NCBI GenBank assembly: GCA_025363455.1
Contig: JANYDW010000068.1
Coordinates: 1 to 64,000 of the forward strand
DNA from: Oleiharenicola sp.
GTDB lineage: Bacteria; Verrucomicrobiota; Verrucomicrobiia; Opitutales; Opitutaceae
DNA length: 64,000 nt
Direction: 5' to 3'
The translations under genes and the position numbers were made by a program. Shown here one piece after another: positions 34,451 to 49,870 of this stretch; the first letter of the stretch is position 1, and each line of letters starts with the position of its first letter. Under the pieces are notes generated by a model. The model saw nothing but the letters and a program-made list of their open reading frames with translations, was not told the DNA's origin and searched no databases.

Positions 34451-34939
34451 ATGTCAAAAAACGACCAGACCACCGGAATGAATATCTCCCGCGCCCGCAT
34501 GATCCAACTCCTGAACGAGGATCTCGCGGGGGAGTACCAGGCCATCATTGCCTACACCGTCTACAGCCAGGTCATCAAGGGGGCGCAATACACCGGCATC
34601 GCGAAGGAACTGGAGCAGCATGCGGCCGAGGAATTGGAACACGCCATCAAGATTGCCAAGCAGATCGATTATCTGGGGGGCATGCCCGGCGTGACGCCCA
34701 AGCCGGTCAAAACTTCCCCCGACGCTGTCACCATGCTGCGCGCGGACCTGGAGAACGAACGAGCCACCGTCGGCCGTTATCGCGAGCGCATCCTCCAGGC
34801 GGAAGCGATGGGTGAGTTTGCTTTGAGCGAGGTCTTGCGCGGCATCATCGTGCAGGAGCAGGACCACGAAATTGATCGCAGTGCGGCTTTGGGCATCGAT
34901 GTACCGCTTCCCATCCCGCCAGCGGGGCGAGCCTCGTAA
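34451..34939 (+). CDS. Ferritin-like/bacterioferritin-type protein
   Basis: A 162-residue four-helix bundle. The metal ligands appear in the right order: Glu in LAGEYQAIIAYTVYSQ, Glu and His in LEQHAAEELEHAIKIAK, Glu in LENERATVGRY, and Glu/His in IVQEQDHEIDR. This is the bacterioferritin/Dps-like branch used for iron oxidation and storage. No heme Met is obvious. It follows dodecin, giving an iron/flavin redox-protection pair. Confidence 0.88.
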   Translation: MSKNDQTTGMNISRARMIQLLNEDLAGEYQAIIAYTVYSQVIKGAQYTGIAKELEQHAAEELEHAIKIAKQIDYLGGMPGVTPKPVKTSPDAVTMLRADLENERATVGRYRERILQAEAMGEFALSEVLRGIIVQEQDHEIDRSAALGIDVPLPIPPAGRAS

Positions 34940-35767: not shown

Positions 35768-36508
35768 ATGCTGCCCCATCCCACCCTGGCCACCCGCTAT
35801 GCCACCCCGGAGGCGAAACCTGAATTCGTCAACCGGCTGTTCGACGGTGGCGCCAAGCATTACGACGCCATCGTGGACTGGGGCTTCCTTCGCAGCGGGA
35901 CCTCCTACCGTCACTGGGTGCTGAAGCGGCACGGGTTGCTTCCCGGGGATCATCTTCTCGACGTCGCCTGCGGCACCGGCCTCGTGGCGGTCGAAGCGGC
36001 CAAGATCCTCGGCACCGCCCAAGCCATCACCTGCCTCGATCCCAGCGCCGGCATGCTGGCCGTCGCGCGGACCAAACTGCCGGCGCACTTCGTGCAGGCG
36101 CGGGCCGAAAAAATCCCGCTGGCGGACAACTCCTTTAATTTTCTCACCATGGGTTATGCCCTGCGGCATGTGACGAGCCTCACGGAGACCTTTCAGGAAT
36201 TTCACCGGGTCCTTAAGCCCGGCGGCAAATTGCTCATCCTCGAGGTCACCAAGCCCACCGGTCCCGCGGCCGGATTTCTCTTCCGGCTCTACTTCGGCCG
36301 GCTCTATCCGTTTCTCACCCGGCTTTTCACCCGCAGCAACGAGGCGCAGGACATGATGCGCTACTACTGGGAGACGATGGACACCTGCGTCCCGCCATCC
36401 GCGGTGCTCGGCGCGCTCGCGGCCGCGGGTTTCACCGCCGTGAAACGCGATGCCGCTCTCGGCCTGTTTAGCGAATACTCGGCCGTAAAATCTAATCCTC
36501 TCCCATGA
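35768..36508 (+). CDS. UbiE-like SAM-dependent methyltransferase
   Basis: A 246-residue class I methyltransferase: DHLLDVACGTGLVAVEAAKI (SAM motif I), AITCLDPSAGMLAVARTKL (motif II), then AEKIPLADNSFNFLTMGYALRHVTS and LKPGGKLLILEVTKP, the usual UbiE/COQ5 features. It opens the polyketide locus and overlaps the next ACP gene by an ATGA stop/start, which argues that it acts on the product of that locus, as the head-group methyltransferase in aryl polyene clusters does. The ATG at 35768 is preferred, since the frame upstream lacks conserved sequence. Confidence 0.88.
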   Translation: MLPHPTLATRYATPEAKPEFVNRLFDGGAKHYDAIVDWGFLRSGTSYRHWVLKRHGLLPGDHLLDVACGTGLVAVEAAKILGTAQAITCLDPSAGMLAVARTKLPAHFVQARAEKIPLADNSFNFLTMGYALRHVTSLTETFQEFHRVLKPGGKLLILEVTKPTGPAAGFLFRLYFGRLYPFLTRLFTRSNEAQDMMRYYWETMDTCVPPSAVLGALAAAGFTAVKRDAALGLFSEYSAVKSNPLP

Positions 36509-36879
36509 AAACATCCGCTCCCTCCCCCACCGCTTCCACCGAGCACGAGCAAAGCATCCGGCACCTGCCCGCCCCGGCCCGCGCGGCCTTCGAACAATTC
36601 CAGGCCGGTGGCGACCCGGCCACGCTCGATCCGGTCGTGCTCGCCATCCTGGCGGATTTCTCCCCCCGTGCTTCCGAGATCCCGCTGGCCGACCTGCCCG
36701 GCGACACCATGCTGATCGATGATCTCGGCTTTGATTCCCTCGCCATCACCGAGGTGGTGTTCGCTGCCGAGGATCTTTTCCGCATCAACATCACCAACGA
36801 GGAAATTGTCCAAGTGCGCACCCTGGACCACCTCCGCGGCTTCATTCGCGCCAAGGTGGCCGGTCGATCGGCGCGCTGA
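36505..36879 (+). CDS. Acyl carrier protein with N-terminal extension
   Basis: A 124-residue protein whose last 75 residues are an ACP: DDLGFDSLAITEVVFAAEDLF carries the pantetheine Ser (Ser78), followed by IVQVRTLDHLRGF. The first 45 residues are a linker-like extension. Its ATG overlaps the methyltransferase stop (ATGA) and the ketosynthase starts 18 bp after it. A second ACP follows, so the locus has two distinct carriers, as in aryl polyene clusters. Confidence 0.88.
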   Translation: MKTSAPSPTASTEHEQSIRHLPAPARAAFEQFQAGGDPATLDPVVLAILADFSPRASEIPLADLPGDTMLIDDLGFDSLAITEVVFAAEDLFRINITNEEIVQVRTLDHLRGFIRAKVAGRSAR

Positions 36880-36897
36880 GCCCGGTCCCCGTCCCGT

Positions 36898-38163
36898 ATG
36901 CCCCCGCTCCCTGTCATCACCGGCCTGGGTTTCATCACCAGCATTGGCCAAGACCGTGCCACGGTGGGACGGAGCCTGCGCGAACTGCAGCACGGCTTCG
37001 AGCGCGTGGAGTTCTTCGGCAACCCCAACCTGCCCGTCAAGGTCGCGGGCACCATCAAGGGCTTTGATTTTCCCACGCCCTCCTGGCGCGACTGGCGCTG
37101 GCCGGATCGTTTCACCGTCGACCGTGAGCTGCTCCGCGGCCTTGCCCCGCACGGCGTTTATGCGCTCTGCGCCCTGCAGCAGGCGCTCACCGAGGCCGGG
37201 CTCGAGCCGGGGGAACTGGGCGACGGCACGACCGGATTGTTCTGCGCGTCCGCCGGCTCCCCGTTCATGCTCGGCAGCTTTCTCGGACAGATGCGCGAGA
37301 CGCGCGGCGAACGCGGCAACCCGATGGGCGTCGTCTCCTCGATCGCCGGCACCCTGAATTTCAACCTCGCCACCCACTACCGGATCACCGGCGCGGTCTG
37401 CGGCTTTGTCTCCGCCTGCGCCTCCTCCAGCCACGCGCTCGGCTACGCCATGGACGAGATCCGCCTCGGCCGGCAGCAGCGGATGCTGGTCGTCGGGGCA
37501 GAGGACATGACGGACGAGAGCATCATGGCCTTCTCCAGCCTGCGCGCCCTGTCCAACAACCCGGACCCGGCCACGGCCTCCCGGCCCTTCGACCGCCGGC
37601 GCGACGGCTTCGTCGGCACGGGTGGTGCCGTGGCCCTCATCGTCGAGGATGCCGCGCTGGCCCGGCGGCGCGGTGCACATATCATCGCCGAGTTGATCGG
37701 TTGGGGCCAGGCCGGCGACGGTCACAGCGTCACCGCCTCGCACCCGGAGGGCGCGGGCCTCCGCGAAGCCATGCGCCGCTCGCTCGCCGATGCCCGCGTC
37801 AACGCCCGCGATGTTGGCTACGTGAACGCCCATGCCACCTCCACGGTCGCGGGCGACCGCTCCGAGGCGCTCGCCTTGCACGCCACTTTCACCAGCCAGG
37901 GGGCCAGGCCCCGGGTCAGCAGCACCAAGGCGCTCACCGGACACGGGCTGTCTCTCGCCGGTGTCATGGAGGCGGCCTTCTGCGCCCTGGCCATTGATGA
38001 GGGCTTTATCCCCGGTGCGGCGCATCTCGAGGAACCCGATCCGGTTTGCACTGGCCTGGATTTGCCCCGAACCTCCCTCGCCGAGGCTCCCGGCCTCGTG
38101 CTTAACAACAGCAGCGGTTTTGGTGGCAGCAATGTCTGCCACCTCCTCCGCCGCCCCGCCTGA
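36898..38163 (+). CDS. Beta-ketoacyl-ACP synthase (FabF-like), full length
   Basis: A 421-residue condensing enzyme with the full catalytic triad: Cys in GFVSACASSSHALG, His in NAHATSTVAGD, and His in SSTKALTGHGLSLAG. TLNFNLATHYRITGAVCG and FDRRRDGFVGTGGAVALIVED are typical thiolase-fold parts. Aryl polyene systems use a FabF-type ketosynthase paired with a chain-length factor; this enzyme is the likely main elongating synthase. It lies between two ACP genes. Confidence 0.92.
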   Translation: MPPLPVITGLGFITSIGQDRATVGRSLRELQHGFERVEFFGNPNLPVKVAGTIKGFDFPTPSWRDWRWPDRFTVDRELLRGLAPHGVYALCALQQALTEAGLEPGELGDGTTGLFCASAGSPFMLGSFLGQMRETRGERGNPMGVVSSIAGTLNFNLATHYRITGAVCGFVSACASSSHALGYAMDEIRLGRQQRMLVVGAEDMTDESIMAFSSLRALSNNPDPATASRPFDRRRDGFVGTGGAVALIVEDAALARRRGAHIIAELIGWGQAGDGHSVTASHPEGAGLREAMRRSLADARVNARDVGYVNAHATSTVAGDRSEALALHATFTSQGARPRVSSTKALTGHGLSLAGVMEAAFCALAIDEGFIPGAAHLEEPDPVCTGLDLPRTSLAEAPGLVLNNSSGFGGSNVCHLLRRPA

Positions 38164-38170
38164 ATTTCCC

Positions 38171-38437
38171 ATGACCGACGCCCTCACCCTCCGCCTAAAA
38201 ACCTTGATTTGTACCACCCTCAAGCTCGAGGAGGTGCGCCCCGAAGACATCCCCGGCGACGAACCGTTGATCGGTTCCACCCGCCTCGGCCTCGATTCGC
38301 TCGACGCGCTGGAACTCGTACTCGCGATCGAGCGGGAGTTTGGCGTCAAGATCGGCAGCAGCGAGGAATCACGCCAGGCGCTCGCCAGCGTCGACACCCT
38401 CGTCACCTACCTCCGCTCCCGCCAGGTCGCCGCCTGA
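38171..38437 (+). CDS. Acyl carrier protein
   Basis: An 88-residue ACP with the site STRLGLDSLDALELV (Ser43) and typical spacing of the following helices (IEREFGVKIGSSEESRQALA). It starts 7 bp after the first ketosynthase and ends 11 bp before the second. It is closely similar to the lone ACP at 33772. Confidence 0.92.
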   Translation: MTDALTLRLKTLICTTLKLEEVRPEDIPGDEPLIGSTRLGLDSLDALELVLAIEREFGVKIGSSEESRQALASVDTLVTYLRSRQVAA

Positions 38438-38448
38438 CCCTCTTTCCC

Positions 38449-39564
38449 ATGCATGCCCCGGCTGACCAGCTTCCCGTGGGTCTTGCCGCATGCGACTGCC
38501 TGACCCCCTTCGGCGACGCCTCGGCCACCGCCGCCGCCCTGCTCGCAGGCCGGAGCGCCCTGGCCTTGACGCCGGTGCTCGGCCGCGACGGCGGCGACCT
38601 CGTACCGCTTGCGCTGTTCGGGCCCATGGACGAAACCCTTCCGCCGCGCTGGCTGCCTGTGCTGCACCGGTTGGCTGCCGGCATCCCGCCGGCAGCGTGG
38701 GGCTCCGCCCGCTGCCCGGTGATTGTCACGAGCAGCAACTTCGGGGTCGGCAGCCTGTACGCCTTCACCCGGGACCAGGACGTGCGCCACCTCGCGCACG
38801 GTGCGCCCTTTGCCAGCGTCGAGCTGCTCCGTCGGGAATTCGACTGGGGCGGGCACATCCAGGTTTTTTCGCACGCCTGTGTCACCGCGCATCTCGGGCT
38901 CGCCCACGCCGCGCGGCTGTTGCACGCCGGGCTCGCCGACCGCGTGCTGGTGTTCTCGTTTGATTTTGTCAGCCCGTTTGTCGCGGGGGGCTTTCACAGC
39001 CTCAAGATCCTCAACGGCGGCCTGCCCGCACCCTACGCGGCGCGCCCGACAGGCTCGATCGGCCTCGGGGATGGCGCGGCGTTCGCGGTGCTCACGCGCG
39101 ACCCCGCGTCGTTCCAAGTCGCGGCCCACGCCCTGCACAACGAGATGTTTCATTTCACGGGCAACCGGACGGACGGCGCGGGCTTTGCCGATTGCGCCGC
39201 GGCCATCGCCGCGACCGTCGGTGGGCGGCGGGTCTGGCTCAAGGGCCACGGCACCGGCACGCTGGAGGGCGGCCGGATGGAGGCTGAGGTGCTGGCCCGG
39301 CAGTTTCCCGGCGCGCCGCTCACGGGTTGGAAGGGCGGCCTGGGCCATACCCTCGGCAGCTGCGGCCTCGTCGAGCTGGCCGTCGCGCTCGCCGCGCTGC
39401 GCACTCCGGGCGGAAAAATCCCCGGCGCGGTGGGCAGCCTGGCACCGGTATTCACCGACACGGTGGCGCTGGCGGCCTTCGCCGCCACCGATTTCGACGG
39501 GGCCGTTCTCACCAGCAACGCGTTCGGTGGCGCCCACGCCGCCATGCTCCTCACGCATGATTGA
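38449..39564 (+). CDS. Beta-ketoacyl synthase, short form with intact triad
   Basis: A 371-residue thiolase-fold protein, shorter than FabF. The triad positions are still present: Cys in FSHACVTAHLGLAH, His in KGHGTGTLEGG, and His in GGLGHTLGSCG. VIVTSSNFGVGSLYAF and LVFSFDFVSPFVAGGFHS replace the usual FabF core motifs, placing it in the group that accompanies aryl polyene and ladderane-type loci. The intact triad suggests it condenses or transfers acyl units rather than acting only as a chain-length factor. Its 3' end overlaps the next gene by 8 bp. Confidence 0.85.
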   Translation: MHAPADQLPVGLAACDCLTPFGDASATAAALLAGRSALALTPVLGRDGGDLVPLALFGPMDETLPPRWLPVLHRLAAGIPPAAWGSARCPVIVTSSNFGVGSLYAFTRDQDVRHLAHGAPFASVELLRREFDWGGHIQVFSHACVTAHLGLAHAARLLHAGLADRVLVFSFDFVSPFVAGGFHSLKILNGGLPAPYAARPTGSIGLGDGAAFAVLTRDPASFQVAAHALHNEMFHFTGNRTDGAGFADCAAAIAATVGGRRVWLKGHGTGTLEGGRMEAEVLARQFPGAPLTGWKGGLGHTLGSCGLVELAVALAALRTPGGKIPGAVGSLAPVFTDTVALAAFAATDFDGAVLTSNAFGGAHAAMLLTHD

Positions 39565-40216
39565 GCGTTTCATTCACCAGGTTAAGGTTGAGCTGCCACC
39601 CGGAATCGAGACCGTGGCCGACGCACGGGCGCGGCTGGCCGCCAAGTTCCCGCGCGCGGCCCTGCGGCGGATGACCCATCTTGGCCTGCTCCTGGGTTCG
39701 GCGCTCGAGGACATCCCGCTGGGCCCGGAGGATGCGGTGGTCTATGCGTCCACGTTTGCCGAGACCCGTTCCCTGGAGGATTTTCTGCTCAGTTTTCCCG
39801 CGGCGAGCCCGTTGCTGTTCCAATCGTCGATTCATCCCGGCGGCATCCAACAGGTACTGATCGGCCGGCAGCAGCCCATCGCGCGACTCTGGCCCTTGGC
39901 CGGGCGGACCCGGCTCGTCGAGCAGGCCCTGCTGACTGCCTTGCTGGAACCGGCCCCGCGCGTGGTGCTGGCTGGCGGCGAGGAAACCGGCACGTGGATG
40001 CTGGAACACAACCTGGCCTCGGCGCGCTCATTTGCCTTCGCCATGATTCTGACCCGAGCGCCCGCCGGGGCCTTGGGGCGGGTGGCCTTCGCCCGGGGCA
40101 CCTCAACCGACGACCCCTGTCCGACATTGGAAAATTTCACCCAGGCCCTGACGGGCCGGCACGCCCTGCAATGGTCGGGGGCGGGCGGAACCTGGACGCT
40201 CGACTGGCTCCCATGA
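39557..40216 (+). CDS. Ketoacyl-synthase N-terminal-like protein (chain-length-factor type, Ketoacyl-synt_2)
   Basis: A 219-residue protein. The part around residues 45-115 (MTHLGLLLGSALEDIPLG, VVYASTFAETRSLEDFLLSF, PASPLLFQSSIHPGGIQQ-like) matches the truncated ketosynthase family found beside aryl polyene ketosynthases. There is no catalytic Cys and no His motif, so it cannot condense by itself; a role as a partner of the preceding synthase is likely. It overlaps the synthase gene by 8 bp and the next gene by ATGA, indicating tight coupling. Confidence 0.8.
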   Translation: MIERFIHQVKVELPPGIETVADARARLAAKFPRAALRRMTHLGLLLGSALEDIPLGPEDAVVYASTFAETRSLEDFLLSFPAASPLLFQSSIHPGGIQQVLIGRQQPIARLWPLAGRTRLVEQALLTALLEPAPRVVLAGGEETGTWMLEHNLASARSFAFAMILTRAPAGALGRVAFARGTSTDDPCPTLENFTQALTGRHALQWSGAGGTWTLDWLP

Positions 40217-41295
40217 AGGCAGTGCAAACCAGTGACGCCGATCGGCAGGAAAACCCGATTGATGGTAGGGCGGGATCGCTGATCCCGCCTTCGCCGGTTC
40301 AACGAAGGGATCAGCCGTTGCAACAAGCTCCGAGCCCCGAGCCCGGGTCGCCTTCGGCGCCACCGCCGGCGGGTAAACCTGTCGCGGGGCGATCCCCCCC
40401 TGCAGCTCTCCGAAACCCCGGCCCCAGTTGGGGCTACGGTTTCATGCTGGGACTGGAGAGGCATGCCCCGTCGTGGTTTTTCCGGGCCCTACTGATGGCG
40501 GGAACCTGGGTCGGGCTCGCCTTCATGCCGGCCCAGCGCGCGCATTCCCGCGCCTACCTCGCGGTGGTGCTCGGCCGGCCCGCGACGCTGGTCGAGGTGT
40601 GGCGTCATTTCTTTTCCTTTGCCGAATACCTGATGCTCAAACTCCGTGCCAGCCGCGGTGTAACGGTCACCTGTGTGCTGGACCCGGCCCACCAAGCCGA
40701 CCTCGCCAGGCTGACGGCGTCCGGTCAGCCGGCTTTTTTTGGTTCGTTTCATTTCGGTGGCTCCGACCTGCTCGGCTATTTGTTGAGTGAGCTCGGCCGG
40801 CGGGTCACCATCCTGCGAACGCGGGTGGGCAATTCCGCCGACACCCGGATGCTGGCCGAACGGTTTGGCGGGCAGGTCTCGGTCCTGTGGGTCAACGATC
40901 CCGCCACTCTCCTGTTCGACCTGAAGGCGGCCATCGAGGCCGGGGAGTCGCTCGCCCTGAAATGCGATCGGCTGGAACACAGCACGAAGACTGCGCCGTT
41001 TCAATTCCTCGGCGCGACGCGTTTGTTCCCTTTCACCATCTACCAACTCGCGATCATGTTCAACAAGCCGGTCGTGTTCTGCACCGCCGTGCCGTCCGGC
41101 CGGCCGGATTCGCTGCGCGTTCATGCCTCGCCGGTGTTCACGCCCGACCCGGCCGCCGGCCGCGCGGCCAACACCGAGGCGGCGCACCGGCATTTCCAAG
41201 GGGTGCTGTCCCAATTGGAAGGGCTGATCCACCAATATCCCTTCCAGTGGTTCAACTTCCTGCCGCTCAACCCGGAGGCGCCCGCGGTCCATTAG
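40213..41295 (+). CDS. LpxL/HtrB-like lysophospholipid-type acyltransferase
   Basis: A protein of up to 360 residues. From about residue 78 on it follows the lauroyl/myristoyl transferase family: LERHAPSWFFRALLMAG, a membrane segment, then FGSFHFGGSDLLGYLL (the acceptor-side His segment; the usual HxxxxD appears as HFGGSD), RVTILRTRVGN and ESLALKCDRLEHS. The first 75 residues are Pro/Arg-rich and contain a copy of the TGTAGGGC-type palindrome in coding frame, so they may be spurious; the ATG at 40444 is a reasonable alternative start. The 40213 ATG overlaps the preceding stop as ATGA. In aryl polyene clusters such enzymes attach acyl chains to the lipid product. Confidence 0.78.
   Translation: MKAVQTSDADRQENPIDGRAGSLIPPSPVQRRDQPLQQAPSPEPGSPSAPPPAGKPVAGRSPPAALRNPGPSWGYGFMLGLERHAPSWFFRALLMAGTWVGLAFMPAQRAHSRAYLAVVLGRPATLVEVWRHFFSFAEYLMLKLRASRGVTVTCVLDPAHQADLARLTASGQPAFFGSFHFGGSDLLGYLLSELGRRVTILRTRVGNSADTRMLAERFGGQVSVLWVNDPATLLFDLKAAIEAGESLALKCDRLEHSTKTAPFQFLGATRLFPFTIYQLAIMFNKPVVFCTAVPSGRPDSLRVHASPVFTPDPAAGRAANTEAAHRHFQGVLSQLEGLIHQYPFQWFNFLPLNPEAPAVH
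40258..40290. repeat. REP-like palindrome inside a coding frame
   Basis: Sequence GATGGTAGGGCGGGATCGCT with its partner GATCCCGCC forms a hairpin. The left part TTGATGGTAGGGCGGGATCG is identical to 51948-51967, next to the PAP2 gene start. It falls within the long N-terminal frame of the acyltransferase. Confidence 0.6.
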
Positions 41296-41330
41296 GCCGA
41301 ATGTATCGCCCCCACTCCATGACCGCCCGA

Positions 41331-41464
41331 CACACCCCGGCGCTCCGCCCGCCTTCGCTTAGCTTCGGCGAGGCAAGCGCCACCCCTCTTCATAGAGGGG
41401 ATTCTAAAATTCACGCAGCCGCAGTCCCCTCTAAGAAGAGGGGTGCCCGACAGGGCGGGGTGTG
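41331..41464. repeat. Dispersed palindromic repeat, family A (long form)
   Basis: 134 bp from CACACCCC to GGGGTGTG with the same inner palindrome as 17408-17508 plus an extra segment CCGCCTTCGCTTAGCTTCGG. The sequence just after it (GTGAAATATCCGGGCTAG) also has a near match on the other strand at 51988-52006. The 41296-41516 spacer between the two acyltransferase genes contains only this element. Confidence 0.8.
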
Positions 41465-41516
41465 TCGGGAACGTTCCAGAGGGTGAAATATCCGGGCTAG
41501 GCCGCGCCGCATCGCC

Positions 41517-42287
41517 ATGTTTTTCCACACCCTCTACTTCATCCCGATTTATTTCGGCACACTGCTGCTCTTTGCCGCCGGCGGGTTTGAACTGTGCGTG
41601 CTCGGCCTGCTGGCCGGCGTGCTGCCGGCGTCGGAACGGATGGAGCGGTTATTCCAGCGACTGATCCAGCGGCACCTCGCGTTCTTTCATTGGTGGTGCG
41701 ACCTGACCCGGCTCGTCCATGTGCGCTATCACGGTTTTGAAACGAACCCGGCGGGCGGTCGCGTGCTGGTGGCCAACCATCCCGCCATGATCGACATCAC
41801 GTGCCTGCTGGCGCGGTTGCCCGGGGCGCTCTGCATCTTCAAGCCGGCCATCCGGCGCAATCCCGTGCTGGGCGCGGCCGCCCGGTGCGCGGGCTATCTC
41901 GGCAGCGACGGCGGACACGACCTCGTGCGAAACGCGGCGGAGAAAACCGCGGCCGGCCATACGCTGGTCATCTTTCCGGAGGGCACGCGCACGCCACCGG
42001 GCGAGGACCTGCTCCCCTTCAAGCCGGGCTTCGTCCTCATCGCTCGCCGCGCTCGCGTGCCGATCCAGCTCGTGCGGATCACGACCGACTCTGATCTCCT
42101 CGCCAAGGGCGCCGCCTGGTGGCGGCTGCCACGCCTGCCCGCCCGGGTCGAGGTGACGGCCGGTCCACTGATCCCCACCGATACGGCCGCGAGCACCACC
42201 GAGCTGGTCCAGGACATCGAGGCGTGGTTTCGCGCCCCGGCGCCGGGCGCGGCTTTCCGGCGGGCCCTGGGTCGCCACCAGTCATGA
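41517..42287 (+). CDS. PlsC-like 1-acylglycerol-3-phosphate-type acyltransferase
   Basis: A 256-residue membrane-associated enzyme. Two N-terminal hydrophobic stretches precede the conserved acyltransferase motifs: NHPAMID (HxxxxD), IFPEGTR and ADDLLPFKPG-like segment. Its place between the LpxL-like enzyme and the glycosyltransferase, with an ATGA overlap to the latter, links it to building the lipid part of the aryl polyene product. Typical PlsC enzymes esterify lysophosphatidic acid; here the acceptor is probably the polyene or its lipid anchor. Confidence 0.88.
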   Translation: MFFHTLYFIPIYFGTLLLFAAGGFELCVLGLLAGVLPASERMERLFQRLIQRHLAFFHWWCDLTRLVHVRYHGFETNPAGGRVLVANHPAMIDITCLLARLPGALCIFKPAIRRNPVLGAAARCAGYLGSDGGHDLVRNAAEKTAAGHTLVIFPEGTRTPPGEDLLPFKPGFVLIARRARVPIQLVRITTDSDLLAKGAAWWRLPRLPARVEVTAGPLIPTDTAASTTELVQDIEAWFRAPAPGAAFRRALGRHQS

Positions 42288-43684
42288 TCCCCTCCCCCAC
42301 CCACCTGGTTCTGCTGCCGACCTATAACACCGGCCCGCGCCTCCGCGAGGTCGTGGCCGAGGTGCTGCGCCACTGGTCGCCCGTCCTGGTCGTGGTGGAC
42401 GGCAGCACCGATGGCAGCGAACGGCCCCTGCTTGCGCTGGCCGCGACCGAGCCCGCACTCACCGTTCAGGTGCTGCCGCGGAACGCAGGCAAAGGCGCGG
42501 CCGTGCTGGCCGGTGCGCAATTCGCGCGGGCGCGCGGCTTCACGCATGCGCTCGTGATGGACGCGGACGGGCAGCATCCCGCGGCCAGCATCGGGGAGTT
42601 CATGGCGGTCTCGCTGCGGCAGCCGGCCACCTTCGTCCTCGGGCGGCCGATCTTTCCGGCTAACATCCCCGCCGAGCGGCGGCATGGCCGCAAACTCAGC
42701 GTCGGCCTCGTGCACCTCGAGCTGATGGGGGCGGCGACCGTGGACCCTTTGTTCGGCTTCCGTGTTTATCCGCTCGCCCCGCTGCTCGCGACACTCGGGT
42801 CGCGGGCGGGCGGACGGCGCTATGATTTCGACACCGAGGCTGTGGTCCGGCTCGGCTGGGCGGGCGTGCCGCTGCTCAACCTCGCCGCGCCGGTCCGTTA
42901 TTTCTCCCGCGCGGAAGGCGGCGTGTCCCACTTTCACTACCTGCGCGACAACCTCCTGCTGGTGTGGATGCACACGCGGCTCCTCGCCGAACTGCTGGTC
43001 TGGCGCTGGCCCGCCATGCTGCGCCACCGGCGCGAGTGGCGGACCGCCGGGGCGGCCCTGGTCTTGCTGTGCGCCGGCGTCCTGTCGGGCCCAGCCGCGA
43101 CCGAGCCGCCAGTCCTCCCCGAGCACCCGCTCGATTTCAACGCCCCGGAGTGGCGCCTGGTGGCCGCCGCCTTTGCCCGGCAGCCGGATGTCACCGCGGA
43201 TTTCACCGAACGGCGGCAATTTCCGTTCAAGACGGAAGCCGTCCGACTCTCGGGCGTCGTCCGCGTCTCCCCCACGCGTGGCCTGAGCCTGCAATACACC
43301 ATCCCCGAGGCGCGCATCGTCATCCTGGATGATCGGGGCGTGCTGGTGCGCGCCCCTGCCGGCGAACGTTCGCAGCCCAGCGACCCGCGCGCCGCCGCCG
43401 TGAATGACGCGCTGCGGCGCATCCTGCGCTTCGACCTCGCGGGACTGGCCCACGACTTCGAGCCTTACGGGCAGATTGACGGCGAAGCCTGGACTTTGGT
43501 GCTGGTGCCGCGCACGGAGACGCTGCGCCGCGGCACCGGCCGGATCACCGTCGCCGGCGAGGCGGCCACGATCCGCCGCATTGAGATCCGCCACTCGGCC
43601 AAGCAGGTCATCGAGATAACCATCGAGCCCCCGCGGCCTGCAACGGCATTCACCGCGGAGGAGGTGAAGAAGTATTTCCGCTGA
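42284..43684 (+). CDS. Fusion: family 2 glycosyltransferase plus LolA-like domain
   Basis: A 466-residue protein with two parts. Residues 1-240 are a GT2 glycosyltransferase: VLLPTYNTGPRLREV, VVDGSTDGS, ALVMDADGQHP (DxD-type metal site) and LVHLELMGAATVDPLFGFR. A hydrophobic stretch (RTAGAALVLLCAGVLSGPAA, about 253-275) follows, and residues about 280-466 match the LolA outer-membrane lipoprotein carrier family (FARQPDVTADFTERRQF, RVSPTRGLSLQYTIP, ETLRRGTGRITV). Separate GT and LolA genes are usual in aryl polyene loci; a single chain joining a cytoplasmic GT to a periplasmic LolA-like domain through one membrane pass is unusual. ATGA overlap with the PlsC-like gene. Confidence 0.85.
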   Translation: MIPSPTHLVLLPTYNTGPRLREVVAEVLRHWSPVLVVVDGSTDGSERPLLALAATEPALTVQVLPRNAGKGAAVLAGAQFARARGFTHALVMDADGQHPAASIGEFMAVSLRQPATFVLGRPIFPANIPAERRHGRKLSVGLVHLELMGAATVDPLFGFRVYPLAPLLATLGSRAGGRRYDFDTEAVVRLGWAGVPLLNLAAPVRYFSRAEGGVSHFHYLRDNLLLVWMHTRLLAELLVWRWPAMLRHRREWRTAGAALVLLCAGVLSGPAATEPPVLPEHPLDFNAPEWRLVAAAFARQPDVTADFTERRQFPFKTEAVRLSGVVRVSPTRGLSLQYTIPEARIVILDDRGVLVRAPAGERSQPSDPRAAAVNDALRRILRFDLAGLAHDFEPYGQIDGEAWTLVLVPRTETLRRGTGRITVAGEAATIRRIEIRHSAKQVIEITIEPPRPATAFTAEEVKKYFR

Positions 43685-43728
43685 GACGGACGCGAACAGA
43701 TGAGACCCTATTTTGTTCGTTTCATTTT

Positions 43729-43800
43729 TGTAGGGCTGCCGCTGGTCGGCAGGCCAGGCCGCGTCCGCCGGCCGGCCCGGCGACAAGCGCCGGCCCTACA
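43729..43800. repeat. Palindromic element, TGTAGGGC ends
   Basis: 72 bp beginning TGTAGGGC and ending GCCCTACA with GC-rich inner pairing. It occupies the spacer before the exporter gene and shares its ends with the repeat at 3389-3418. Confidence 0.6.
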
Positions 43801-43824
43801 TTCCATCCTGGCTGGAATCGGCCC

Positions 43825-46167
43825 ATGACCTTCCGCCGCCGCCAATTCCTCGGCTGGAGTGTCCTCGCCATCGCGGCCCTGCTCGGTGGGGCGTGGCTGC
43901 TGCAGCTCGACTATCCGCGAAAAATTTCCAGCGATGTGCTCGACCTGATCCCGGTGGATGAGCAGGCGCCGGAGCTAACCCTCGTCCGTTCGCTCGCCAG
44001 CCAGGCGGAGGCCCGCACCATGTTTTTCGAACTGACCGCCGCGGAGGGACGGCCCGCGTCCGCCGAGGCGGCGGGACGATTCGCCCTGACCCTGGGCCGC
44101 GAGCCGGCTTTTGCCGAGGTGCTGGTCATGGGCGATAGCGTCGCGCAGGATGCGCTCGGCCGTGAATTGTTCGAGCAGCGCTTCGCCCTGCTGTTTCCGC
44201 TGTGGCTGGAGGAGCGCACCGCGGCCCATGCCGCCACCGGCGGGGCACCCGCCGGGTTTTCCGCCTGGCTGGCGCAAGACACGGCCGCGGCTCTTGGCCG
44301 GTTTCTGGCCGCGCCCGAGGCTCTGGCCTTCGCGGACCTGATACCCGCCGACCCGCTGCTGCTCCTGCCCGGAGCCGTGGACCGGTTAAAGGACGGCCTG
44401 CTGCAATCCGCGGCGCCGCGCAGCCCGGCGCCCACCCTCGTGTGGGCCCGGCTCGCGGCCTCGCCCCTGAGTGAGGCGGGCCAGGCGCCGGCGTTCGCCG
44501 CCATCGAGCGCGCCACCGCGACGGTGCGCGCGGACTTCCCAGGTTTCACCGTGGCCTACACGGGCGTGAACCGCTTCGCCGCCGCCAGCCGCGCGCGCAT
44601 CGAGCACGAGGTCACCTGGCTCAACGCGCTTTCCCTCGCCGCCGTGATGGCCGTGGCCTTCATGTTCATCCGCCGGGTGTATCGCGGCCTGCATCTCGTA
44701 CCCGTCGTGGGACTCTCCGTCCTCGGCGCCTGGGTCGCCGCCACGCTGGTGTTCGACCGGTTGCACATCATGGTGTTTGTGGTCGGCTCACTGCTGACCG
44801 GCGTGGCCATCGACTATGGCTTTTATCTTTTCATGCAGCCACCGCTCGGGCCCACCGAGGACTACTGGGCCAAGGTAAGGCGGCTGGCCAAGCCCCTGCT
44901 CGCGAGCTGCCTCACCACCGTCGCCGGGTTCGCGCTGCTGCTGTTCTCCGAGCTGCCTTTCATCCGCCAGCTCGGCGTGTTCGTCGGGGCCGGGCTGGTC
45001 TGCGCACTGGCCGCGGCCGTCGTCTATTTTTCCACCGTCCGGCAGCCCTTTCTGGAGACCCGGGCGTTTCGCGGCGCGGCGGGACTGCCGGCTGGGCTTC
45101 GCCGGGGAGTCCGCGGCGGGCTCATCGTCGTGTGGCTGCTCGCGCTGCCCGGCCTCGCCCGGCTGCACTGGAAGGACGATATCCGCGAACTGCAGATTCC
45201 CTCCCCGGAGCTCACGCGCGAGGACGAGCGGATCAAAGCCGGCTTCGGCGAACAGGACGGCCGGACCGTTTACCTCACCTATGGCAACAACCTCACCGAG
45301 GCCCGGACATCGCTGGAGCAGTTCGAGACGTGGCTCGGCACGGTGGAGGGCGCCCCTGCCCGGACTGTCGGACTGGGCACGGTGGTACCGACCGCCGCGG
45401 CGTATGGCCGGGCGGTCCGATTCGCGCACGAACATCCGGAGTTTCCCGAGCAGTTGCGCGCCGCCCTCGTCGCGGCCGGTTTCACGGCTACGGAATTCGA
45501 TCCCTTCTTCGCCGCCTATGCCCGGTATGCCGCCGGGGCGAAAGCGGCCGACTGGAACGCCGCCCTCAATGGCCTCCAACAGAAACTCACCGGTCCGCTT
45601 GGGTTGCTGCTGCATGCGGGCCAGCCGCTCAGTTGGTTCGTCACGATTGTCCGCTCCGCCCCGGCCACCGCGCCGCCGGCCGCCCTGCGCACGGTGAGCG
45701 CTTCCCAGCTCCAATCTCTCAACCAACTGTTCAGCCGCTATCGGCAGTCCGCCCTGTGGCTGAGCCTGACCGGCCTCGCGTTGGTCGGGGCCGGCGTGTT
45801 GCTTTCCTATGGCTGGCGCGACGGCGTGCGGATTTTCGCCATCCCCTGCGGCGCCTGCCTCGGGCTCTTCGGGGTGTTCGGCTGGCTCGGCCATCCGCTC
45901 AACCTGTTTCACCTGCTCGGCGCCTTCCTCGGCGTGTGCCTGACGCATAACTACTCGATCTTCTCCGCCACCTCGGCCTATCGGCGCGAGCCGCCCCCGG
46001 TATCGGTGCGGCTGTCGGCCTTGACGGCCGCCGCGTCGTTTGGCGTGCTGGCCTTGAGCGGGATTCCCGTGGTCAGCGCCCTTGGCTCGACCGTGGCCCT
46101 GATGGTGATCGCCGCCCTGGTGACCATCGAGTTCGAGCACCTCGCCGGGCTCGGGAAAATGCCATGA
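43825..46167 (+). CDS. MMPL/RND-family exporter
   Basis: A 780-residue transporter made of two similar halves, each with one membrane segment, a large periplasmic loop and five more segments (for example LSLAAVMAVAFMFIRRVY, MVFVVGSLLTGVAIDYGFYLF, then in the second half LTGLALVGAGVLLSYGW, LFHLLGAFLGVCLTHNYSIF). The Asp in VAIDYGFYLF corresponds to the proton-relay region of the family. Loci making xanthomonadin and aryl polyenes contain just such an exporter (xanthomonadin/ApeK type). Its stop overlaps the next start as ATGA. Confidence 0.9.
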   Translation: MTFRRRQFLGWSVLAIAALLGGAWLLQLDYPRKISSDVLDLIPVDEQAPELTLVRSLASQAEARTMFFELTAAEGRPASAEAAGRFALTLGREPAFAEVLVMGDSVAQDALGRELFEQRFALLFPLWLEERTAAHAATGGAPAGFSAWLAQDTAAALGRFLAAPEALAFADLIPADPLLLLPGAVDRLKDGLLQSAAPRSPAPTLVWARLAASPLSEAGQAPAFAAIERATATVRADFPGFTVAYTGVNRFAAASRARIEHEVTWLNALSLAAVMAVAFMFIRRVYRGLHLVPVVGLSVLGAWVAATLVFDRLHIMVFVVGSLLTGVAIDYGFYLFMQPPLGPTEDYWAKVRRLAKPLLASCLTTVAGFALLLFSELPFIRQLGVFVGAGLVCALAAAVVYFSTVRQPFLETRAFRGAAGLPAGLRRGVRGGLIVVWLLALPGLARLHWKDDIRELQIPSPELTREDERIKAGFGEQDGRTVYLTYGNNLTEARTSLEQFETWLGTVEGAPARTVGLGTVVPTAAAYGRAVRFAHEHPEFPEQLRAALVAAGFTATEFDPFFAAYARYAAGAKAADWNAALNGLQQKLTGPLGLLLHAGQPLSWFVTIVRSAPATAPPAALRTVSASQLQSLNQLFSRYRQSALWLSLTGLALVGAGVLLSYGWRDGVRIFAIPCGACLGLFGVFGWLGHPLNLFHLLGAFLGVCLTHNYSIFSATSAYRREPPPVSVRLSALTAAASFGVLALSGIPVVSALGSTVALMVIAALVTIEFEHLAGLGKMP

Positions 46168-47510
46168 GCCACGCGCTGCTCCAAGCCTGGGCCAAGACAC
46201 TCCGCCGCCATGGCGGCGACCGCGCGGTCATTCAGGCCGGAAACGAAACGCTCGTGACCTTTCGCGAGCTCGACGCGCGCGCGGAGGCCTGGGTGGAAAA
46301 TCATGTCCCGGAACCCACGTCCGTGCGCGGCCGCGCCGTCGTCTTCGCCGTGGCAAACGGCTTGGGCTGGCTGGAAATGTTCCTCGGCCTGCTCAAGGCC
46401 GGCGCGGTCGTGGTGCCGCTCGATGCGGCCGAACCGGCGATGGCCCTGCTCCGGCTCGCGGACTCACTTCGCGCCGGATACTGGTGGACCGGCCTGAAAC
46501 TCGAACCGCTGGCGGGGGCGAAGCGCTATCGCGACCCGGCGATCTGCCTGCTCAAGGTGACCTCCGGCACCACCGGCCGGCCCCGGGCGCTGGCGTTTAC
46601 CGCGGGCCAGCTGCTGGCCGACGCCCGGCAGGTGACGGCCACCATGGGCATCAGCCGCCGCGACTTGAATTACGCGTTGATTCCGTTCGGGCACGCCTAC
46701 GGTCTCGGCAACCTGACGATTCCCTTGTTCGCGCAGGGCGTACCACTGGTCTGCGGAACCGCCCCATTGCCTCACGCCATCGCGACAGACTTTGCCCGGT
46801 GGCGACCGACGGTTTTTCCCGGCGTGCCCACGATCTGGCGGGCGCTGGCCGCATCCGATCTCACGCTGCCGGGCCTGCGCCTGGCGATCACCGCCGGCGC
46901 GCCGCTGCCGACGGAAGTGGCGAAAGATTTTTCCGCCCGGTTCGACCAGCGGTTGCACAGCCTGTATGGCTCCAGCGAAACCGGGGCCGTGGCCTATGAC
47001 CGGACGGGCGCGGCTACCCTGGCCGGCGCGGTCGGTCACGCGATGCGCGGCGTGGAAATGACTGCGCTCAGCGGTGCGCGGCTGCGGGTCAGCAGCGCCG
47101 CGGTGCTGACGCACGGCAACCGCCGGCGAACCGGCCGGCAGGGAGCGTGGGTCATGCCGGATCGCGTGGTGTTGGACGCGCGCGGCGGCGTGACCCTGCT
47201 CGGCCGGCGCGGCCTGACGGTGAAGATCGCCGGCCGCCGGGTGAATCTCGCCGAAGTGTCCGCGCGGTTGCGGCAGCTTCCGGACGTGCGGGAGGCCTGG
47301 GTCGGCCTCAGTCCGGGCCCCGACCCGGTGCTGGCAGCCGTCGTGGCCGCGTCAGGCCCGGCCGCTGATTTGCGTGCCGCGCTGCGCGCCGACACCGCCG
47401 CGTGGAAGATCCCGAAGAAACTCATCGTGGTCGCCGCGTTGCCCGTGACCGCACGGGGCAAACCCGATATGCGCGCGTTGCAGGCCATGATCTCCGTGGC
47501 AAAAGAATGA
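46164..47510 (+). CDS. AMP-forming acyl/aryl-CoA or aryl-ACP ligase
   Basis: A 448-residue adenylating enzyme: LLKVTSGTTGRPRAL (phosphate-binding loop), YGSSETGAVAYDR, GRRGLTVKIAGRRVNL (hinge, normally D-x-K) and the catalytic Lys in TARGKPDMRAL near the end. Compared with typical ligases it is short. With a hydroxybenzoate-type chorismatase next door, the likely substrate is 3- or 4-hydroxybenzoate, loaded onto an ACP as the aryl polyene starter, like XanA2/ApeH. The last gene of the rightward operon; ATGA overlap with the exporter. Confidence 0.88.
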   Translation: MSHALLQAWAKTLRRHGGDRAVIQAGNETLVTFRELDARAEAWVENHVPEPTSVRGRAVVFAVANGLGWLEMFLGLLKAGAVVVPLDAAEPAMALLRLADSLRAGYWWTGLKLEPLAGAKRYRDPAICLLKVTSGTTGRPRALAFTAGQLLADARQVTATMGISRRDLNYALIPFGHAYGLGNLTIPLFAQGVPLVCGTAPLPHAIATDFARWRPTVFPGVPTIWRALAASDLTLPGLRLAITAGAPLPTEVAKDFSARFDQRLHSLYGSSETGAVAYDRTGAATLAGAVGHAMRGVEMTALSGARLRVSSAAVLTHGNRRRTGRQGAWVMPDRVVLDARGGVTLLGRRGLTVKIAGRRVNLAEVSARLRQLPDVREAWVGLSPGPDPVLAAVVAASGPAADLRAALRADTAAWKIPKKLIVVAALPVTARGKPDMRALQAMISVAKE

Positions 47511-47541
47511 GCGCGTGCCGGATCGCCAGAAGCGGTACGGC

Positions 47542-47790
47542 TTAACCCGTTTCCCCGGCCGGGGCCGGCGTGACCGGCAGTAACAGGTTGATCGCAGCCG
47601 TAAGCTGGTCGTTGGAAAATGGCTTGGCCAGCACCTGGTCCGCGCCCAGCTGCAGGGCCAGCTGGAGATGGTTCGCCGCCGCCCCCCGCATCCCGCCCGT
47701 GATCACAATGACCCTCACGCCCGGCCGGGTTCTTTTCAATTCCACCAGCACCTCAAATCTCTCAATTCCGGGCATGACGAGGTCGGCCGG
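47542..47790 (-). pseudogene. Remnant of a response-regulator receiver domain
   Basis: The frame encodes only the C-terminal half of a receiver: DLVMPGIERFEVLVELK (the phospho-acceptor Asp and loop), VIVITGGMRGAA, and LGADQVLAKPFSNDQL with the conserved Lys. The N-terminal half with the acidic pair is missing, and an in-frame stop lies just upstream at about 47791. This looks like a decayed regulator gene downstream of the chorismatase gene on the same strand. An intact protein from ATG 47775 would lack the Asp. Confidence 0.6.
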
Positions 47791-47818
47791 TCATCGGCAT
47801 GACGGGCAGTCCGTGAAA

Positions 47819-48742
47819 TCAGGGGAGTCCCCTCACGCCAAAAAACGAAGCCTCGACCTCGACGCGCAGTTCGGAGCGGCAGAGGTCGGCTTGCAGGTAG
47901 GATACCCGGTCTCCGGGGGCGAACAGCTTCTTCTCCAGCACGGCGGCGACCAGCGGCAGGTCCGCTGCGTAGCGGAGATAAACCTTGAAGTGGCGGGTGG
48001 AGCCATCGCCTGTAGCGAGCCGGGAGCCAAGCCCGCAAGCGGTGGAGAGGGCTTCCAGATTTTCCAGGGTGCAGGCCAGCTGCAGGGGCGTGCTCCCCGA
48101 AGCGACTGTCGCGTGCCCGCGGATGGCTGCGGTGCCGGAGATAAAGACCGTGGCGGAATCCACGCCGGGCACCACGGTCGCCCGGGCAAAACTTGGAGCG
48201 CGCGGGCCGTAGGCACCGGGATAATCGTAGGCGGCCACCTGCAGCGGATTCTCCACGTGGCGCGGACGCCCGGAGCACGCAGCGAAAACCACCGTCAGCG
48301 CGGCCGAGTGGGTCCCGACCGCGGATGCCGAGGGCAGCAGCGGCTTGAATCCGCTCCCGTGGTGCTGCTCGAAGGCCAGGGACCGGCCCTTGCAGAAACC
48401 GCGATAATTTTCCAGCCCGGCGGGCCCGGCCGCGTTAAGGGCCGGGACATAATTCCAGATCCGGGCGAGCTGCTGGCCCCGCGTCGCCTCAAATATATTC
48501 CGGTAGAGCTGGCGCGAGGTTTCCTCCAACTCCGTGGTCGGGCGCAAGGTGGCGGCGCCGAGCAGCCAGTCTCCCGCCTGAAAGAGCGCGACCTCACCCA
48601 TCCGGCCGGCGGGCCGGGCGGAACCAAAGAGGATTTCCACCGCGTCACCGGCGAGCACGGGCACACCCGCGTCAAAAACCCCGCCCTCCTCCGGGCCCAG
48701 GGTGATTTTCAGGGAAGGTGATTCGGTGAGTACAGGGGTCAT
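47819..48742 (-). CDS. Chorismatase, FkbO/Hyg5/XanB2-like (hydroxybenzoate-forming)
   Basis: A 307-residue enzyme of the chorismatase family. The segment RQLYRNIFEATRGQQLARIW, then NYVPALN and GLENYRGFCKGRSLAFEQH, is the conserved core shared by FkbO, Hyg5 and XanB2, followed by AVGTHSAALTVVFAA and the trimer-type barrel typical of the YjgF-like fold. XanB2 makes 3- and 4-hydroxybenzoate from chorismate and supplies the xanthomonadin starter; a similar role for the neighbouring polyene locus is strongly suggested. Which subfamily (hydrolysis or 1,4-elimination product) it belongs to needs active-site comparison. Its start overlaps the stop of a 54-residue ORF as ATGA. Confidence 0.85.
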   Translation of the reverse strand: MTPVLTESPSLKITLGPEEGGVFDAGVPVLAGDAVEILFGSARPAGRMGEVALFQAGDWLLGAATLRPTTELEETSRQLYRNIFEATRGQQLARIWNYVPALNAAGPAGLENYRGFCKGRSLAFEQHHGSGFKPLLPSASAVGTHSAALTVVFAACSGRPRHVENPLQVAAYDYPGAYGPRAPSFARATVVPGVDSATVFISGTAAIRGHATVASGSTPLQLACTLENLEALSTACGLGSRLATGDGSTRHFKVYLRYAADLPLVAAVLEKKLFAPGDRVSYLQADLCRSELRVEVEASFFGVRGLP

Positions 48743-48903
48743 GCGATAAATCTTCCGGTCTCCCGGTCCGACAGGGCTGCGTCGAGTACCCCGGACTTCA
48801 CCGCGAAGGGAGCCAACGCCGCGAGCGCGGCCGCCAGCCCGACGGCCAGCCATACCCGCTTGTTCTTCCAGCGAGGTTTAAGCGGGTGGGTGAGAGCTTT
48901 CAT
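48739..48903 (-). CDS. Small single-pass membrane protein, 54 aa, coupled to chorismatase
   Basis: A 54-residue ORF: MKALTHPLKPRWKNKRVWLA begins a basic head, LAVGLAAALAALAPFAV is one membrane segment, and a short tail ends KSGVLDAALSDRETGRFIA. A ribosome-binding site AGGAAAG sits 8 bases before the ATG, and its stop shares ATGA with the chorismatase start, so translation of the enzyme is probably coupled to it. It is too short for common gene-finding cutoffs and has no recognised family. Confidence 0.7.
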   Translation of the reverse strand: MKALTHPLKPRWKNKRVWLAVGLAAALAALAPFAVKSGVLDAALSDRETGRFIA

Positions 48904-49057
48904 ACGAGTTCTTTCCTATCATTTGACTGGCTTGACGTCAAAGGATGCCATCGTCGGTGTAAATCCCATTGTTTGGTAGTGGGCAACCCACGATAGATGA
49001 GTTGGTATCCCATGGCCGGCAAACCTTGTCGTGGGCAAACGTCGCTCTCCTTCTCTC

Positions 49058-49654
49058 ATGCACCTCGCTTTCAAACTTGCCCTGCTGGGCACTGTCCTAC
49101 GCGGCTTCACTTACGCCGCCGATCTGGCGCCGGCCCCGGACCGCCCCTGGGCCTCGAGTGATCTGACCCTCGAAACCGGGGTGCTCTGGGAAGTCGGCAG
49201 GCTCACTCCGCTCCCCTACCGGCTGGTGCCCACCCAGCTCTCGTGGCGGTCGGCCGAAATTTTCGGCTGGACCTACGAGAATGGAACGCGGCTGGTCGTC
49301 CGCCACCGGCTCTCCCTGATCGGCACCTGGATCCAAAGCGGGCCGGAGTCCTATTACCTCGGGGTCTCGGGCTCACCGTCCATCGAACTGTGGAATCCCG
49401 CCGGCACCCGTTCACTCTACTTTGGTTCCGGCGGCGGTCTCGGGTTAACCGACTCCCGGAACGTCCCGGGCGGCCTGGGCCAGGATTTCACCTTCAACTG
49501 GTTCATCCGGGGCGGAGTCGAGATTGTCACGGCCAAGCATGCCCACCTGAGCGCGGGCCTCCTGTACCAGCACTTGTCGAACGGCGGACAGACCGACCCC
49601 AATCCGGGCATCGACGCGCTGGGCTTCAGCCTCGGCTACGGCTGGGCGTTCTGA
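49058..49654 (+). CDS. PagL-like lipid A 3-O-deacylase
   Basis: A 198-residue outer-membrane barrel with a signal peptide (residues 1-21). The C-terminus contains the PagL catalytic motif: HLSNGGQTDPNPGIDALG, where His and Ser match the active His-x-Ser pair, followed by the terminal strand FSLGYGWAF. PagL removes the 3-O-acyl chain of lipid A in the outer membrane. The start ATG 49058 puts the signal peptide first. It is divergent from the chorismatase unit and next to a carbohydrate deacetylase gene. Confidence 0.82.
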   Translation: MHLAFKLALLGTVLRGFTYAADLAPAPDRPWASSDLTLETGVLWEVGRLTPLPYRLVPTQLSWRSAEIFGWTYENGTRLVVRHRLSLIGTWIQSGPESYYLGVSGSPSIELWNPAGTRSLYFGSGGGLGLTDSRNVPGGLGQDFTFNWFIRGGVEIVTAKHAHLSAGLLYQHLSNGGQTDPNPGIDALGFSLGYGWAF

Positions 49655-49870
49655 GGGAGCTCGCCGCCGTGAGCGCCCTCCTTCCAGGAATTTTAGCCAC
49701 AAAAAGGCACGAAAAGGCATCCATCCTGCAGGCCGCAAATCTCCGGCGCGCCTATAGGCGCCTTGAGAGCAACGTGTGCCGCCGTATTTTTTGTGCCTTT
49801 TTGTGGCAATACTCTGTCTCCATGCCCGTCAGGAATAATCTCTCCGGCCTTCATTGTGGCTGATCGCGCC

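Follow-up and report, generated by a model that had tools for sequence, protein, structure and literature searches.

The aryl polyene (APE) loci with which the present cluster was compared encode their own reductase and dehydratases. The APE cluster of E. coli CFT073 (apeA-R) has counterparts of ApeO, ApeC, ApeE, ApeD, ApeJ, ApeL, ApeM, and ApeH in common with a cluster that we analyzed in a genome of Oleiharenicola sp. (4.23 Mb, 83 contigs), where it lies within positions 1-64000 of contig C71; this whole stretch of 64,000 nucleotides is called the window below. Compared with CFT073, the window cluster is without counterparts of ApeI, ApeP, ApeQ, ApeK, and ApeB (ApeA, ApeG, and ApeN being outside the comparison) and without an ApeR-type ketosynthase, having a FabB-like extra ketosynthase; it adds its own chorismatase and a UbiE-like methyltransferase, and in it LolA and the glycosyltransferase form one fusion, the acyltransferase being a separate gene. 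By gene lists (PMC3949708), the Xanthomonas xanthomonadin and Azoarcus arcuflavin loci share with the window a XanB2/ArcB-type chorismatase, a ligase, an acyl carrier protein (ACP), a ketosynthase (KS), acyltransferases, a glycosyltransferase (GT), LolA, an exporter, and a methyltransferase, and the Azoarcus arc locus also has a polysaccharide deacetylase (arcN). The arc loci carry a reductase (arcH) and dehydratases (arcI, arcS), whereas the window cluster has none.

We consider it probable, at odds of roughly two in three, that the cluster is an Opitutaceae pigment locus of the aryl polyene type, one that would work like an APE/xanthomonadin locus and be a lineage-specific derivative of it. 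The analysis itself shows the gene set, its correspondence to the E. coli Ape proteins, the intact catalytic residues of KS2 and the chorismatase, and the lack of ApeI, ApeP, and ApeQ counterparts in the visible clusters of the clade; the chemistry of all steps, the polyene character of the product, and the supply of enzymes in trans are inferred. The locus is not classed as a complete APE/xanthomonadin locus because the reductase and the dehydratases were looked for and not found. The sequence-only reading had proposed an aryl polyene- or xanthomonadin-like locus in a Verrucomicrobiota-type cell; it was right about the machinery, the starter chorismatase, the attachment and export genes, and the cell type (Opitutaceae-type by the nearest named relatives), but did not notice that a ketoreductase (KR) and both dehydratases (DHs) are missing, the most unusual trait of the locus.

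Condensation, starter supply, and export

Eleven genes run in one direction on the forward strand (35768-47510, +), with the chorismatase gene facing them on the opposite strand (47819-48742, -). Their ten junctions comprise four exact ATGA overlaps, one overlap of 8 bases, and five gaps of 7-221 bases. The gene list, the single direction, the several ATGA overlaps, and the facing chorismatase of the sequence-only reading are all present. Profiles built from the window and its relatives were searched against 19 E. coli proteins, namely 15 CFT073 Ape proteins (named as in PMC8253772) and FabF, FabG, AcpP, and FabB of K-12, and eight of the eleven genes match APE parts (ApeO, ApeC, ApeE, ApeD, pieces of ApeJ, ApeL, ApeM, and ApeH).

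The core of this resemblance is an ApeE-type acyl carrier (ACP2, 38171-38437; a PP-binding domain; ApeE 84.7 bits vs. AcpP 36.4) followed by an ApeO-type ketosynthase (KS2, 38449-39564; ApeO 99.4 bits vs. FabF 62.1) and a chain-length factor (CLF, 39557-40216). KS2 matches Pfam and NCBIfam models of the C-terminal ketosynthase domain and had been called a short ketosynthase; it is a ketosynthase but not a short one, since it has 371 residues and a full Cys-His-His triad, with Cys144, His267, and His300 invariant across 18 aligned sequences, E. coli ApeO among them. Its best PDB matches are 7f28_B, which we take to be from an A. baumannii pair, and 6qsp_A, an entry named in the Foldseek listing as ApeO with ApeC. 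For the CLF, neither Pfam nor NCBIfam gives a match, and PDB gives no credible one by sequence; ApeC (25.8 bits) is its sole profile match above threshold, and the first three Foldseek matches of its AlphaFold model (pLDDT 94.3, from 43 sequences) are 6qsp_B (ApeC), 7f28_A, and 7f28_C. The gene product, earlier described as chain-length-factor-like, is thus predicted to fold as ApeC does.

The ligase and the envelope-attachment set (ApeH, ApeD, ApeJ, ApeL, and ApeM counterparts) are present by profile. An LpxL-like gene (40213-41295; weak PF03279; ApeJ 62.5 bits) corresponds to the acyltransferase half of ApeJ, and we would guess that its true start may lie further downstream, e.g., at 40444. 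It is followed by a PlsC-type, ApeD-like acyltransferase (41517-42287; PF01553; ApeD 150.3 bits) and by a GT2-LolA fusion (42284-43684; GT2 by Pfam) that combines the glycosyltransferase half of ApeJ (186.1 bits) with ApeL (36.1 bits). The LpxL-like and LolA parts, both already named by the sequence-only reading, score under the Pfam cut-offs and are recovered by these family profiles. An ApeM-like MMPL/RND exporter (43825-46167; PF03176; ApeM 211.5 bits) and an ApeH-like AMP-forming ligase (46164-47510; PF00501; ApeH 68.5 bits), presumably a hydroxybenzoate:ACP ligase, complete the row.

The profile scores of the three genes at the other end speak against a straightforward APE reading. The UbiE-like methyltransferase (MT, 35768-36508; PF01209, E 2e-31) is likely to act in ring tailoring and is unlike ApeB, its 7.9 bits against that protein being no match. 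An acyl carrier adjoining KS1 (ACP1, 36505-36879; PF00550) matches AcpP best (30.0 bits), above ApeF (18.6 bits), and KS1 itself (36898-38163), a FabB/FabF-type enzyme with a full ketosynthase match in Pfam and NCBIfam, scores 262.2 bits with FabB, 261.2 with FabF, and 195.2 with ApeR. In a tree of 40 ketosynthase sequences, KS1 forms one group (100/100) with the enzyme types of contigs C20 and C22 of the same genome (described below), FabB joining at 100/97, although this KS1/C20 group is partly unresolved inside. ApeR pairs with a ketosynthase of genome G025 (100/100), away from KS1, and KS2 and ApeO are separated from the remaining 34 rows (93/88); these two and an enzyme of contig C67 are on long branches. 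Grouping of the ketosynthases and ACPs with fatty-acid enzymes had been proposed as a refutation, and the outcome is mixed: KS2 and ACP2 are closest to APE proteins, but KS1 groups with the FabB type.

The chorismatase (47819-48742, -; a longer form starting at 48853 is possible) belongs to the FkbO/Hyg5 family and is the presumed source of a hydroxybenzoate starter. It scores 198.8 bits against TIGR04444, whose curated cut-off of 325 is reached by none of 273 genomes of the window's order, and matches PDB entry 5ag3, presumably Hyg5, with an E value of 5.5e-44. Glu-334 is the active-site acid of Hyg5, and the 3-hydroxybenzoate-forming subfamily is marked by Gly-164, Gly-231, and Cys-318 of Nat-Hyg5 (PMC7170507); we read the latter as Hyg5 positions 173, 240, and 327, with an offset of nine inferred from the 5ag3 alignment. 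We aligned the chorismatases of 46 of 48 loci (window included), those with a stop-free piece of more than 600 bases. The equivalents of Cys327, Glu334, and Gly240 are kept in all 46, as the earlier reading had asked of the chorismatase residues, and the 173-type position, the third CH-II glycine, is Ala in 39, Gly in six, and Cys in one. FkbO carries Ala at the 240-type Gly position; because Cys, Glu, and this Gly are kept, the enzyme is of the hydroxybenzoate kind and not FkbO. A chorismatase is present in 48 of 53 loci showing the ligase, and a literature search on aryl polyene together with chorismatase returned nothing.

In the proposed scheme, the chorismatase would make 3- (or 3- and 4-) hydroxybenzoate, the ligase would load it onto ACP2, and KS2/CLF would extend the ACP2-bound starter with malonyl units, KS1 perhaps starting the chain or helping. 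In each round, the chain would be reduced and dehydrated by a ketoreductase and a dehydratase encoded outside the cluster. The UbiE-like methyltransferase would tailor the ring, and the acyltransferases, the GT-LolA protein, and the MMPL protein would attach the product and move it to the outer membrane.

The missing ketoreductase and dehydratases

The gene content was compared over 81 loci, i.e., the window plus 80 named relatives (the best 80 of 106 in a scan of named genomes, a sample that leans to close kin and in which many loci are cut by contig ends), all annotated with one profile set. They were split at 55.5% KS2 identity to the window, a cut chosen post hoc, into a near group of 67 loci (window included) and a far group of 14. 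In the near group, an ApeI-like dehydratase between PLSC and GT is found in none of the 55 loci showing both genes, and an ApeP-like dehydratase between MMPL and ligase in none of 37. The corresponding gaps between domain matches leave little room: 12-204 bases in 53 of 55 for the former (under 100 bases in 49), the outliers being L089 (513 bases, with a second PLSC piece) and L136 (619 bases), and 20-245 bases in 32 of 37 for the latter (under 100 bases in 30), four of the longer gaps containing a radical-SAM gene and one a broken MMPL frame. When stop-to-stop frames from the window and from its relatives were searched for a hidden dehydratase, with ApeI, ApeP, sister-clade dehydratases, and two hotdog proteins of the window's genome as queries, none was found in the near group.

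In the far group, which consists of sister families, the ApeI-like dehydratase is in place in 8 of 10 loci and the ApeP-like one in 6 of 7; L151, L156, and L159, with KS2 identities of 55.1-55.5%, are the exceptions. These enzymes were recognised from loci L078-L081: the ApeP-like protein of L078 matches PF22817, and the ApeI-like protein has just weak FabA and PKS_DH_N matches, yet keeps a GHF..P motif. A short-chain dehydrogenase/reductase (SDR) or other ketoreductase is seen inside the core of none of the 81 loci; four have an SDR outside it. In every locus seen, therefore, the cluster does not include the reductase, and in the near group it is also without the dehydratases. Both dehydratases are retained in the sister loci and would serve no purpose there without a ketoreductase, so that a ketoreductase must act in trans in those loci.

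Nor was a strong homologue of either dehydratase found elsewhere in the window's genome. Among 57 related genomes, only four (G039, G044, G055, and G056) give strong matches, at 199-208 bits for the ApeP-like and 115-147 bits for the ApeI-like enzyme; all four are outside the window's family and served in building the dehydratase models. G025, a family member without the cluster, has matches of 76 and 49 bits (ApeP- and ApeI-like) near a separate ApeR-type ketosynthase, and the remaining ApeI/ApeP matches listed are FabZ-like, at 20-51 bits. A strong ApeI or ApeP match elsewhere is absent from all 16 searched genomes of the family that carry the cluster, the window's own included.

These absences would also fit a changed chemistry, in which KS2/CLF gives an un- or partly reduced aryl poly-beta-ketide that is cyclised (e.g., to a pyrone or a resorcinol) and becomes linked to a membrane lipid. 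Both the closed PLSC-GT and MMPL-ligase junctions and the lack of a core ketoreductase speak for it, as does a report that A. baumannii FabG was unable to replace ApeQ in vitro (PMC8041823), which makes FabG no simple substitute in the one species tested. We regard this chemistry as improbable: the ketoreductase is likewise absent from the sister loci that keep both dehydratases, the Pfam matches of the cluster include no cyclase-like family, and a polyene acid is what one would expect from the blocks of dialkylresorcinol (dar) genes in two loci that lack the dehydratases.

As in flexirubin-type polyene-dialkylresorcinol loci, darAB-like genes stand with the cluster in these two relatives. In L075 (the same locus as L121), where both lie beside the cluster, DarB scores 583.8 bits against the StlD/DarB family, over the cut-off, and 480.7 against a narrower DarB model with a cut-off of 550; the second protein, which has just weak flavodoxin/FMN-reductase matches in NCBIfam and Pfam, we take to be DarA-like from its position. 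In L137 (3314-9661), genes for DarA-like and DarB-like proteins, a BtrH-like protein, and an ABC pair are found inside an Opitutaceae polyene-type cluster, between KS1 and ACP2. The Azoarcus dar block also has BtrH-like and ABC genes alongside, as in L137 (PMC3949708). Because such blocks occur with dehydratase-less clusters, as in flexirubin and arcuflavin loci, a polyene acid is still the likeliest product. DarA has no match in the window's own genome, where DarB was not searched; among the 57 genomes it is strong in G036 and weak in G014. A literature search on dialkylresorcinol together with Opitutus returned nothing.

It is also conceivable that the locus is a decayed or non-functional APE locus, given the missing DH genes and a response-regulator fragment between ligase and chorismatase. 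We consider this very unlikely, as the KS2, CLF, and chorismatase residues are conserved across the clade, the frames are open and joined by translational overlaps, and the gene order is much the same in dozens of loci.

Candidate partners encoded elsewhere

If the locus makes an aryl polyene, the processing enzymes could simply be those of ordinary fatty-acid synthesis acting in trans, with nothing dedicated. The window's genome encodes a FabG-like SDR beside a FabF-like gene on contig C7 and a FabZ-like domain within a 499-residue frame on contig C51, the latter frame being perhaps an LpxC fusion. With both kinds of gene at hand, and with the sister loci already without a KR gene, this form of the aryl polyene reading is quite possible, if short of even odds; the A. 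baumannii FabG result and the retention of dedicated dehydratases in sister clades count against it.

Contig C20 (L063:7260-11749) carries an operon of an ACP-dehydratase fusion, a FabB-like ketosynthase, and an SDR, then a GT28-type glycosyltransferase. The C20-type ACP-dehydratase is found in one piece, at more than 285 bits, in 44 of the 57 genomes, with ketosynthase and SDR matches adjoining in many, and in all 16 family genomes with the cluster. Of the four carriers of the cluster in sister families, G039 and G056 have it undivided, G055 has it split in two, and G044 gives just a weak match. As a dedicated partner the operon was rejected, since its ACP-dehydratase is also found in genomes without the cluster. 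It is nevertheless our preferred, if unproven, candidate for reduction and dehydration in trans, its ketosynthase being related to KS1. One may go further and picture a two-locus hybrid in the Opitutaceae: starter supply, condensation, and export would stay with the pigment cluster, and all beta-keto processing would have passed to a lipid operon that is separate and widespread. KS1/ACP1 would link the two, since KS1 (and perhaps ACP1 as well) would share an origin with the ketosynthase and carrier of the lipid operon. We hold this fuller picture to be rather doubtful. In Azoarcus, one polyene requires two unlinked loci.

Two other loci of the genome came into view. On one strand of contig C67 (L062:1331-10281) lie a KS, an ACP, two CrtI/carotenoid-isomerase-like FAD enzymes, a dehydratase, an SDR, a KAS III, and an alpha/beta-hydrolase-like frame, possibly a second lipid or polyene locus; no tie to the cluster was seen, and it was set aside as a partner. 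Contig C22 (L064:9513-13287) has a second KS1-like ketosynthase (65%), a carrier, and thioester-reductase-like and cupin-like proteins, and was rejected because its ketosynthase type also occurs in cluster-free genomes (G009 and G014). No KR or DH was found beside KS1 in eight loci where KS1-type genes sit away from KS2.

Several points weigh against an aryl-polyene-type locus. The KR and both DHs are absent from the cluster; KS1, the larger ketosynthase, is FabB-like and not ApeR by sequence; 19 of the 21 family genomes that lack the cluster also have the C20-type ACP-dehydratase, which is thus no dedicated partner; supply in trans cannot be assumed, because A. baumannii FabG failed to replace ApeQ; DarA and DarB accompany only two of the 80 named loci, the genome of the window not being one of these cases; and the product is not known.

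Distribution, neighboring genes, and significance

KS2-type enzymes (E <1e-100) are present in 20 of the 57 related genomes, the window's own included, and in 16 of 37 genomes of its family. Across the phylum, the CLF profile matches 26 of 387 genomes (E <= 0.001), 21 of them strongly (>190 bits), and all 21 belong to the window's order. A strong chorismatase lies within 17 kb of the CLF on the same contig in 17 of these 21 and on another contig in two (G090 and G103); none was seen in G022 and G027, of which G027 is possibly outside the chorismatase sample. Record titles in the named scan include Lacunisphaera, Opitutus, Didemnitutus, Rariglobus, Ereboglobus, and Opitutaceae bacterium, and further out Pelagicoccus and Cerasicoccus.

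Of the 81 loci, 64 have both GT and LolA, and 18 of these, chiefly the window's nearest kin, carry the two as a single frame. The tailoring genes vary: a UbiE-like methyltransferase in 24 loci, a B12-binding radical-SAM gene in 10, and a tryptophan-halogenase-like FAD enzyme in 25, with none in view in 26 and more than one in four. A smaller block of KS2, CLF, and LolA-like genes, with MMPL, ligase, and chorismatase not in view, was seen in L072, L115, L120, and L165; in L072, L115, and L165 a PLSC-type gene lies 2.4 kb upstream, and L165 ends inside KS2. Genome G025 of the family has, at C1:2525000-2541000 (L178), what seems to be a separate APE locus closer to the canonical type, which has an ApeR-like ketosynthase and ApeI/ApeP matches of medium strength.

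A cultured relative, Congregicoccus parvus ASA1 (G033), belongs to the window's family in the classification used here, and its describing paper places it in Alterococcaceae. In its genome, antiSMASH region 4, "arylpolyene" (5,402,678-5,443,805; PMC10927696, PMC12193912), spans KS2 at 5,422,714 and is the same cluster type; compared with the window, it has halogenase-like FAD enzymes, and the UbiE-like methyltransferase is not in view. According to the same sources, colonies are whitish-yellow, becoming slightly yellow, a color that by itself is no proof of a polyene.

After the chorismatase, and beyond the coordinates of the sequence-only reading, the window has genes for a PagL-like outer-membrane protein (49031-49654, +; PF09411) and a polysaccharide deacetylase (49763-50629, +; PF01522), and both genes come after it (as at 49031-50629) in several near relatives too. 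The response-regulator fragment between ligase and chorismatase (47542-47775, -) is the C-terminal part of a receiver domain (profile positions 52-111), has no match in the loci of 17 relatives, and looks like a gene remnant. Upstream of the cluster, an isolated acyl carrier protein (33772-34077, +) adjoins a ferritin-like gene (34451-34939), and neither has a match in the loci of the 17 relatives, several of which end short of that region. Further along, a KaiB-domain protein (52568-52972, +) is encoded immediately upstream of a PAS histidine kinase (53000-54208). A promoter scan gave no sites and was uninformative.

The locus would extend chorismatase-fed polyene-type loci, and combinations of polyene and dialkylresorcinol genes, to the Opitutaceae. 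If it is true that this family works without a reductase and dehydratases in the cluster, it would show how such a pathway can split and would be a natural setting in which to test how far carrier proteins discriminate between pigment and fatty-acid synthesis; alternatively, it may point the way to membrane-bound aryl polyketides of another class.

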